This document shows, in pieces, positions 2,565 through 31,594 of a DNA stretch of 52,530 nt (its first letter is position 1; every line of letters begins with the position of its first letter). The DNA comes from Bacillus sp. (in: firmicutes) (lineage in GTDB: Bacteria; Bacillota; Bacilli; Bacillales; Bacillaceae), in assembly GCA_031180805.1 (NCBI GenBank), contig JAPSLL010000028.1, forward strand, positions 1-52,530, in the 5' to 3' direction. Under the pieces are notes generated by a model. That model saw only the letters and a list, made by a program, of their open reading frames with translations, made no database searches and had not been told where the DNA came from. Both the position numbers and the translations under genes were made by a program.

Positions 2565-2593
2565 AAAAACAGAAATGAATATATTACAAATTT

Positions 2594-2697
2594 CTACTAG
2601 GGGAGTCCATAAGCCTGGACTGAGAGAAGAACGCGCGATTTAAGTTCTTTGACCCTTTGAACCTGATCTGGATGATACCAGCGTAGGGAAGTAGCTG
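2594..2697 (+). ncRNA. TPP riboswitch (THI element) of thiC
   Basis: The diagnostic blocks are in order: CTAGGGGAGT, CTGAGAGA, GACCCTTTGAACCTGATCTG, and ACCAGCGTAGGGAAG. These form the TPP aptamer, with CTGAGA binding the pyrimidine and the ACCTGATC/AGCG helix binding the diphosphate arm. A terminator at 2747-2778 sits between the aptamer and thiC, so control is by premature termination when TPP is abundant. Confidence 0.97.
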
Positions 2698-2746
2698 CAG
2701 TTGAAAAAGGAGTCGTCTATCTTTTTCAATATTAATGCTTACATCC

Positions 2747-4594
<1,848 letters not shown>

Positions 4595-4606
4595 GCTTAA
4601 AACATT

Positions 4607-4635
4607 AAGAGGGCTATATTTAGTCCTCTTTTTTC
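4607..4635 (+). terminator. terminator of thiC
   Basis: AAGAGGGCTA (4607-4616) pairs with TAGTCCTCTT (4621-4630), with one G-U pair and a four-base loop, followed by a T run. It overlaps the 3' end of the convergent ymaF gene. Confidence 0.8.
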
Positions 4636-22470: not shown

Positions 22471-22540
22471 AATGTAGATATGATAGGCAAATTATACGAA
22501 AAACACGCACAAATATGCAATTCCATTATCATTCAAACAC

Positions 22541-22625
22541 CTCTTCCCTACGCTAGTATTATCTAGATCAGGTAATAAGGGTCAAGACAAATGTCTCTCT
22601 CAGCTATAAAGCTCCCCTAGTGGTG
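22541..22625 (-). ncRNA. TPP riboswitch of the pyrimidine-salvage operon
   Basis: On the minus strand the THI-element blocks occur in order: CACTAGGGGAGC, CTGAGAGA, GACCC, ACCTGATCTAGATAATACTAG and GCGTAGGGAAG (the fourth spans 22556-22576 in outline). The terminator at 22434-22470 follows, so TPP turns off ylmB-tenA-thiZXY by premature termination. Confidence 0.96.
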
Positions 22626-22716
22626 AAGTCTATTAAATTTTTAAACTAAAAATCTGTTTAACTAATTATCAATATTATTAACACAATCTACTAAGTTTGG
22701 CAAGAAGGAACGACCA

Positions 22717-29930: not shown

Positions 29931-31070
29931 TCATTGTTCAATATTAAATTGGATGACCCTCATAATCGACTCTATTCGCTCAACAACCCATTCTGGTGTG
30001 TTAGCAATGGCTTCTTTCAAGGTGGTTGGTCCTGGTACGATGGAAAAGGCTGTTAATAATCCGAGCTTGCTTATCTCTGTTTGAGTAAGCTCTAAATGAC
30101 CACATAGTGCAATCACAGGAATATTTTTTCTTTGCGCAAGTCGTGTTACTCCTGAAATTACTTTACCTGAAAAGGTTTGCTTATCAAGCTTCCCTTCACC
30201 AGTAATAACAAGAGTTGCATCAGCTAGTTTTTTTTCAAAATGGATAAGTTCAAGCATAACATCAATTCCAGACTTTCGTTTTCCACGACAAAAGGCAAGC
30301 AAACTAGCTCCTATCCCTCCTGCTGATCCACCTCCAATGAACTCCTTCAAATTAATTCCACTTTGCTTTAACACAATGTCACTATAATGGGAAAGAGCAG
30401 CATCTAATTTTTCAACCATTTCCGGTGTAGCTCCTTTTTGCGGACCAAAGACAAAGGAAGCTCCATCTATTCCACAAAGTTTGTTTGTTACATCACTTGC
30501 AACAACAAACGATGATTCTGTTAGTCTTTTATCCAAATATGTATCATCATAATAGGCAAGGTCAGCTAATGCTCCCCCTCCTTCCTCAAGCTCTTTACCA
30601 TTTTCCTTAAAAAACTTCATTCCAAGTGCTTTTAGCATACCGGTACCAGCATCATTTGTCGCACTTCCCCCTAATCCAATGATAAAATGACGAAAGCCTT
30701 CATCTAACGCATGCTTTATTAATTCACCAGTCCCGTAGCTAGTTGTTAATAATGGATTTTTCTCCTTATCTGTTAATAGTGGCAAACCTGAAGCCTGTGC
30801 TATTTCAATAACGACTGTCTTTTTATCACCTAAAATACCATATGCTGCTTTCACTTTCTCCTTAGCTGGACCACATACATTTGCAAATATTTTTTTTCCA
30901 TTTGTAGAAGCAACGAGATTATCCAATGTACCTTCTCCACCATCAGCTAGTGGTGCTAACACAATAGTAGCATCAGGAAAGACACGACGTATTCCTTGCT
31001 CAATCCTCTCGCACAATAGTTGAGAGGATATAGATCCCTTGAACGAGTCTGGTGCAACAATAAACTTCAT
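29931..31070 (-). CDS. glxK: glycerate kinase
   Basis: A 379-aa kinase of the GarK/GlxK family (glycerate 2- or 3-kinase), recognised by FIVAPDSFKGSISS at the start, LAPLADGGEGT, GLGGSATNDAGTGML and GFGGGSAGGIGASLL-like GGGSAGGIGASLLAFC, plus VITGEGKLDKQTFSGK. It phosphorylates D-glycerate from glyoxylate or sugar-acid breakdown into the lower glycolytic pathway. AAGGGGGTAAATC precedes ATG 31070. The upstream region carries five 21-bp repeats whose last unit supplies a consensus -35. It is convergent with xylR and monocistronic. Confidence 0.92.
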   Translation of the reverse strand: MKFIVAPDSFKGSISSQLLCERIEQGIRRVFPDATIVLAPLADGGEGTLDNLVASTNGKKIFANVCGPAKEKVKAAYGILGDKKTVVIEIAQASGLPLLTDKEKNPLLTTSYGTGELIKHALDEGFRHFIIGLGGSATNDAGTGMLKALGMKFFKENGKELEEGGGALADLAYYDDTYLDKRLTESSFVVASDVTNKLCGIDGASFVFGPQKGATPEMVEKLDAALSHYSDIVLKQSGINLKEFIGGGSAGGIGASLLAFCRGKRKSGIDVMLELIHFEKKLADATLVITGEGKLDKQTFSGKVISGVTRLAQRKNIPVIALCGHLELTQTEISKLGLLTAFSIVPGPTTLKEAIANTPEWVVERIESIMRVIQFNIEQ

Positions 31071-31290: not shown

Positions 31291-31326
31291 CTACGTCATC
31301 CGACATCATTCGTCAATTTTATACAA

Positions 31327-31362
31327 ATAAAAAACCCGATCCTCTAAAAGAGAATCGGGTTT
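31327..31362 (-). terminator. terminator of the candidate ncRNA
   Basis: AAACCCGAT-CTCT (31332-31345) pairs with AGAG-ATCGGGTTT (31349-31362). On the minus strand it is followed by TTTTTTATTTG. No protein gene ends just before it; the only transcript it can serve is the RNA described at 31330-31559. Confidence 0.85.
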
Positions 31363-31559
31363 ATCATTTTAAAAAGGTGCCGCGATTGCCGCATCATATT
31401 ATAGAGTTTTAAACCACCACTCCTACAAGTGGGTGTTTGCAGAAGCTTTCGTATCGTCCTCTACTCAGATGGAGGCTTGATATTCCGACTTCAATATAAA
31501 ACTCCCTATTTCAGCTTAAAGGTTAAAACTTTATAAGAAATGCGTACAGCGCAGCTTGT
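31330..31559 (-). ncRNA. candidate structured small RNA, about 230 nt
   Basis: No protein gene fits here, yet the segment has a promoter (31566-31594), a predicted start at 31559, a long closing helix and a Rho-independent terminator. Closing helix: minus-strand bases 31555-31521 (GCUGCG, CGCAU, UUAUA, GUUUUAACC) pair with 31415-31379 (GGUUUAAAAC, UAUAA, AUGCG, CGCGGC). Inside lie hairpin P2 (31492-31442; GAAG/CUUC, UCG/CGA, UAUC/GAUA, CCUC/GAGG) and hairpin P3 (31438-31411; CCACUUGUAGGAGUGG). The RNA starts four bases before the closing helix. It is not tmRNA, SRP RNA, RNase P RNA or a riboswitch I know; 6S RNA or a sporulation sRNA are alternatives. Confidence 0.65.
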
Positions 31560-31565
31560 ATAGTA

Positions 31566-31594
31566 ATAATACTAAAAATGGACTTAAATTGCAA
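31566..31594 (-). promoter_or_regulatory. promoter of the candidate ncRNA
   Basis: On the minus strand TTGCAA (31594-31589), a 17-bp spacer and TATTAT (31571-31566) give a SigA promoter whose start falls at 31559, at the foot of the RNA's closing helix. Confidence 0.65.

Follow-up and report, generated by a model that had tools for sequence, protein, structure and literature searches.

An RNA gene without an apparent family in a Bacillus genome is almost certainly a 6S-2 RNA gene passed over by default Rfam filters

On the minus strand of a 52,530-nt stretch of Bacillus sp. DNA (contig JAPSLL010000028.1, hereafter the window), a promoter, a structured body and a terminator form one compact RNA gene at 31594-31332, and the locus raises the question of which kind of RNA is encoded there. 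An earlier note, made from the letters of the window, regarded this RNA as unrecognised and belonging to no known family, and routine searching gives the same impression: a cmscan of the whole window with Rfam default settings reports only two TPP riboswitches, at 2589-2706 (plus strand) and 22528-22628 (minus strand), with none of its matches at the RNA locus, and the same settings return no match for a 341-base piece around the RNA. When the filters are made permissive, this piece scores 74.4 bits with the model of the 6S RNA family RF00013, whose cut-off is 46.4 (E 4e-15 for 341 bases); the match is full-length, in that model positions 1-187 are aligned to a body of 188 nt at 31373-31560 (minus strand), and the 15 other Rfam matches of the permissive search all fall below their own cut-offs. 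Since the score exceeds the cut-off with permissive filters and is lost with default ones, the loss is due to the filters and not to the score, and the silence of the default filters at the locus explains its family-less look.

The RNA gene is therefore real but of a known kind, namely a 6S RNA of the 6S-2 (BsrB) type, and the earlier description of it as unrecognised is wrong. The covariance search against Rfam that the note had proposed as a check is what delivers the match once the filters are permissive; 6S RNA had been named in the note merely as one option in a list of alternatives, and that entry stands, whereas the transposable element (MITE) listed with it does not. The reading preferred in the note, a novel structured RNA with no relation to 6S, would agree with the absence of any match under default filters, but it is already refuted by a full-length 6S match well over the cut-off and by homology to the 6S-2 RNA of a presumed B. 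subtilis genome, and its probability is exceedingly small. The same shortfall appears across the genus, in which an RF00013 search reports the window-type locus in 12 of 21 genomes and misses it in nine, the window's own included, whereas by DNA similarity it is present in all 21; the genus search has a first look of its own, and the nine misses need not share one cause.

The promoter assigned to this gene, TTGCAA-17-TATTAT, is borne out on the minus strand at 31594-31566, with the -35 element TTGCAA at 31589-31594 and the -10 element TATTAT at 31566-31571. In this AT-rich part of the window, a match to the promoter consensus is not significant by itself, as 11 promoter-like sites are found between 30000 and 33000 and 10.2 are expected; conservation across the genus is more telling. 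TATTAT is identical in 21/21 genus members, 6 nt ahead of the RNA body, and the hexamer 17 nt upstream of it reads TTGCAA or TTGCAT in 20 of them and TTGATC in the remaining one. The transcript is predicted to start at about 31560-31559. At the other end, an intrinsic terminator at 31362-31332 (minus strand) comprises a 14-pair stem-loop with a T-rich tail, TTTATTTGTA, behind it, and changes on both sides of the stem are seen at 10/14 pairs. The perfect stem-loop described in the note is thus present, although the TTTTTT that the note placed after it partly overlaps the stem. There is strong support for the claim that the RNA comes from an independent gene, equipped with a promoter and a terminator of its own.

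Downstream of the RNA and on the same strand lies the glycerate kinase gene glxK (29931-31070), an arrangement that would suit a leader or riboswitch controlling glxK. Against such a role, the terminator with both-sided changes at 10 of its 14 pairs stands between the RNA and glxK, and in the genus the RNA is kept in place while the neighbouring genes change: among the 17 of 21 genus loci that were surveyed, 16 have a downstream open reading frame of at least 90 aa, which points in the opposite direction in 15, the window being the exception. Because glxK of the window is on the same strand, it is the terminator and the relatives that speak for independence of the RNA from glxK; the neighbours also vary within the family. 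The statement of the note that the RNA is not a simple leader is supported by these loci, and a glxK leader, ruled out by a varying and mostly opposing neighbour gene, is extremely unlikely. Regulation by catabolites was considered as well. A search for exact matches to the cre consensus gives two sites in the window (1.2 expected), both far from the promoter. With all exact-pattern sites so distant, cre control, to which the sugar genes and PMC8414754 had drawn attention, was rejected.

Long inverted arms could also be taken as the end of a MITE or another transposon with long inverted repeats, and copy number is decisive here. The window RNA has one match in its own genome and one match in each of the 21 genus genomes, and its helix pairs covary; a mobile element is thereby excluded, its probability being vanishingly small. 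As proposed in the note, related genomes were searched and copies were counted, with the outcome that the RNA belongs to all 21 and is not the end of a many-copy element. Beyond the genus, it is found in 80/80 family genomes and in 95 of 249 sampled genomes of the order; the latter figure comes from a limited blastn search in which at most three candidates per genome were scored, so that misses do not show absence. The phage collection contains no match to the window RNA at E 0.01.

The fold of the RNA is in keeping with the assignment to 6S. Inclusive of the terminator (31325-31560), the folding energy is -76.3 kcal/mol with a z-score of -6.19, and the body by itself has a z-score of -3.08; in either case, 0/200 shuffles are as good. 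The ends of the closing helix proposed earlier (31555/31379 and 31521/31415) and those of one hairpin (31492/31442) are pairs that the Rfam 6S model also draws here. In the closing stem, the 5' side at 31542-31555 pairs with the 3' side at 31392-31379 (minus strand); its helices 2 and 3 have 96.8% and 100% of alignment cells paired, and the compensatory changes for which the note had proposed to look are present as both-sided changes at 3/12 pairs. The internal stem, with its 3' side at 31405-31415 pairing with 31530-31521, has 98.9% of cells paired, and as 8/9 of its pairs are invariant, covariation speaks neither for nor against it. The terminal irregular stem-loop arm (GGGAG...CACCC, 31431-31506, minus strand, helices 5-8) shows both-sided changes at 7/19 pairs.

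Taken over 21 diverse 6S-2 rows (alignment A2), this 6S architecture of closing stem, central bubble and long terminal arm is supported by compensatory change, with 97.7% of cells paired and both-sided changes at 10/41 pairs, figures for which eight non-standard pairs of the window row had been removed beforehand; when these eight pairs are kept and the terminator is added (alignment A1, 23 rows), 83.7% of cells are paired and 19/63 pairs change on both sides. On the 21 rows, five measures were compared with shuffles, and 0/500 shuffles reach the observed value of any one of them; sliding of the pairing partners lowers the paired cells to 43-51%. When the body is folded alone for minimum energy, the central bubble is closed and the terminal arm is drawn differently; this minimum-energy fold includes a relative of the alternative 3' hairpin seen in the earlier note, CACCCACUUGUAGGAGUGGUG at 31411-31438 (minus strand), which competes with the terminal arm and is less supported across relatives (its helix 7 has 81.8% of cells paired). 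This fold has 89.1% of cells paired across relatives, against 97.7% for the 6S architecture, and was rejected as the true structure on this ground. Its eight pairs with both-sided changes are reached by 220/500 shuffles, yet its paired cells and covariation score still lie above all shuffles. Because some pairs of this fold beside or inside the bubble (columns 21/180 and 26/170) change on both sides, part of the bubble may be paired while the RNA is free.

Within the 6S family, the type of the window RNA can be determined by comparison with a family genome that is taken to be Bacillus subtilis 168 and in which two 6S loci are found; one of them, lying between the genes for an FMN-dependent NADH-azoreductase and a RecQ helicase, presumably represents the bsrB site. 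By blastn, the window RNA is 81.5% identical to the 6S-2 RNA of this genome over 173 nt (E 7e-45), and the block AAGUUUUAACCUUUAAGCUG is shared, whereas no match to either 6S-1 RNA is better than E 2.3. With RF00013, the presumed B. subtilis 6S-2 RNA scores 75.1 bits, so that the 74.4 bits of the window RNA are normal for the type. The gene neighbourhood differs, as the window RNA lies next to genes for glycerate kinase and a family-43 glycosyl hydrolase and its presumed B. subtilis counterpart between azoreductase and RecQ genes; a neighbourhood like that of B. subtilis would be helpful but is not defining. E. coli 6S RNA (SsrS) belongs to the same Rfam family, RF00013, and the same mechanism is proposed for it.

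In a tree of 38 rows (38 of the 60 available, with the genus thinned, and with a program warning of some long branches), the 15 rows labelled 6S-2, the window included, group together (support 96/92), and so, in a separate group, do the 17 6S-1 rows (100/99); the labels of the relatives had been fixed beforehand by overlap with the DNA search matches in the family and the order. The window row accordingly lies with the presumed B. subtilis 6S-2 RNA and apart from 6S-1. An earlier tree contained 13 of the 21 window-type rows, all 21 6S-1 rows, four third-type rows and two plasmid-record rows. Since the genus has at least three 6S types, the window RNA could conceivably descend from another lineage, for example as a recent 6S-1 duplicate or as a member of the third type; this is refuted at the level of the tree, in which the third-type rows fall outside the 6S-2 group (their own grouping is weak, 74/58), and by blastn, which yields nothing better than E 2.3 against 6S-1 or the third type, and such an origin is very unlikely. 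The window RNA is almost certainly the product of a bsrB-type 6S-2 gene in a member of the Bacillaceae, probably Priestia, and would act as a promoter mimic on sigma-A RNA polymerase.

The other 6S RNA of the window genome (G000:C79), which belongs to the same Rfam family and scores higher than the window RNA (99.3 bits), lies between a TcdA-like gene, a label given by the best NCBIfam match although this is below the cut-off of that model, and aspS, the gene for aspartate-tRNA ligase; yrvM is presumed to encode a TcdA-like protein. As aspS and yrvM flank bsrA according to PMC11077062, this copy is taken as 6S-1. It has a predicted product-RNA template different from that of the window RNA, and within this predicted stretch the window genome's 6S-1 (L024:1501-1689; G000:C79:29457-29645) is alone among the 21 genus members in carrying GC, the remaining 20 having GG. 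Elsewhere, a tandem pair of 6S-2-type RNAs is found in one family genome (L085, G028:C1:3138010-3138406), and the 22-kb Niallia plasmid NZ_CP137638.1 (L052) bears a 6S-2-type RNA at 4429-4621, followed after about 0.9 kb by a complete rRNA operon and two tRNAs.

The third, divergent 6S type occurs in 4/21 genus genomes: G003 (L054/L100), G007 (L057/L101), G009 (L056/L102) and G017 (L055/L103). Relatives of it at 73-74% identity are located on three Priestia plasmids (L096, L097 and L098), of which two represent nearly the same region, and it is because these plasmid relatives are Priestia in 3/3 cases that the window genome is taken as probably Priestia; these plasmid copies are not in any tree, and a 34-nt match to the third type in G052 was not counted. 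At 7/7 third-type loci, an SRP RNA adjoins the 6S RNA (cmscan for L054, L056, L096, L097, L098 and L101, together with G017), and some loci also contain tmRNA, 5S rRNA, tRNA-Leu, tRNA-Ala or a tRNA array; the plasmid loci lie near tyrosine recombinase genes, and one 9.8-kb plasmid with the third type has a complete 16S-23S-5S set. The tmRNA beside the third-type 6S in G003 (L100:8949-9311) encodes the tag GKQQNNFAFAA, and the other tmRNA of that genome GKSNNNLALAA; the tag GKQQNNFAFAA recurs in the corresponding tmRNA of G017 (L103:9209-9569), a genome with a second Rfam tmRNA match elsewhere that is uncalled by ARAGORN. In the four genus genomes, the SRP RNAs beside the third type are second copies. 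Two SRP RNAs are present in 7/8 genomes searched, three of which (the window's own, G010 and G005) are without an adjoining 6S; as the extra SRP copy also occurs with no 6S beside it, it is the steadier part of the cluster. In the window genome, the second SRP RNA (G000:C106:26714-26981; L114:8715-8982, minus strand; 173.4 bits) lies next to a tRNA-Ala, and the 17.5 kb around it hold no 6S match.

On a broader and rather improbable reading, 6S-2 would be one member of an enlarged 6S set in the genus, in which the third type travels in housekeeping-RNA clusters on plasmids and some chromosomes, and a mobile 6S, which could shift global transcription of the host, would draw on the same pool of polymerase as the resident 6S-1 and 6S-2 RNAs. 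Titles and opening portions of abstracts on tRNA arrays and rRNA-bearing plasmids describe no cluster combining 6S and SRP RNAs, which is no proof of novelty, and a literature search on 6S RNA with Priestia megaterium or Bacillus megaterium returned nothing with either term in title or abstract.

For the window RNA, a template for product RNA (pRNA) is predicted at 31518-31531 (minus strand), AAGUUUUAACCUUU, within the 5' strand of the internal stem and adjoining the central bubble. All 14 letters are kept in 20/21 genus rows and the first 12 in 21/21; these first 12 letters also recur in all 21 rows of alignment A2, in which the block AAGUUUUAACCU is identical throughout. From the predicted start site, the product RNA would read 5'-AAAGGUUAAAACUU, with GG at positions 4/5 and AA at 9/10; GG at 4/5 or 5/6 and AA at 9/10 are given as hallmarks of product RNAs in PMC8414754.

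In the proposed mechanism, transcription from the sigma-A type promoter would begin at 31560-31559 and end at the terminator (31362-31332), giving an RNA of about 230 nt whose 188-nt body would fold as a 6S RNA with closing stem, central bubble and long terminal arm. By mimicking an open promoter, the bubble would engage sigma-A RNA polymerase at its active site, and polymerase so occupied would transcribe less from many promoters, until a short product RNA, predicted to begin 5'-AAAGGUUAAAACUU, is copied from the bubble, refolds the 6S RNA and frees the enzyme. Expression, polymerase binding, product RNA and release are thus predicted steps for this organism. Deletion of B. subtilis 6S-2 is reported, in work of Thuring from 2021, to have a biofilm effect. 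That 6S RNAs are promoter mimics freed by product RNAs is described in PMC8876501 and PMC11077062; the latter also reports that B. subtilis 6S-2 is enriched on sigma-A in both exponential and stationary phase, with an expression maximum in mid-exponential phase. Its physiological role was called unclear in 2020, in PMC7726162.

An apparent orphan RNA is hereby resolved into a known global regulator, and the case illustrates how a 6S RNA scoring 28 bits over its own cut-off can go unseen in routine searches. With 9/21 genus genomes unreported in the RF00013 search, bacteria credited with just one 6S gene may be overcounted. The 6S-2 copies collected here provide natural variation with which to ask why Bacillaceae keep two 6S RNAs.
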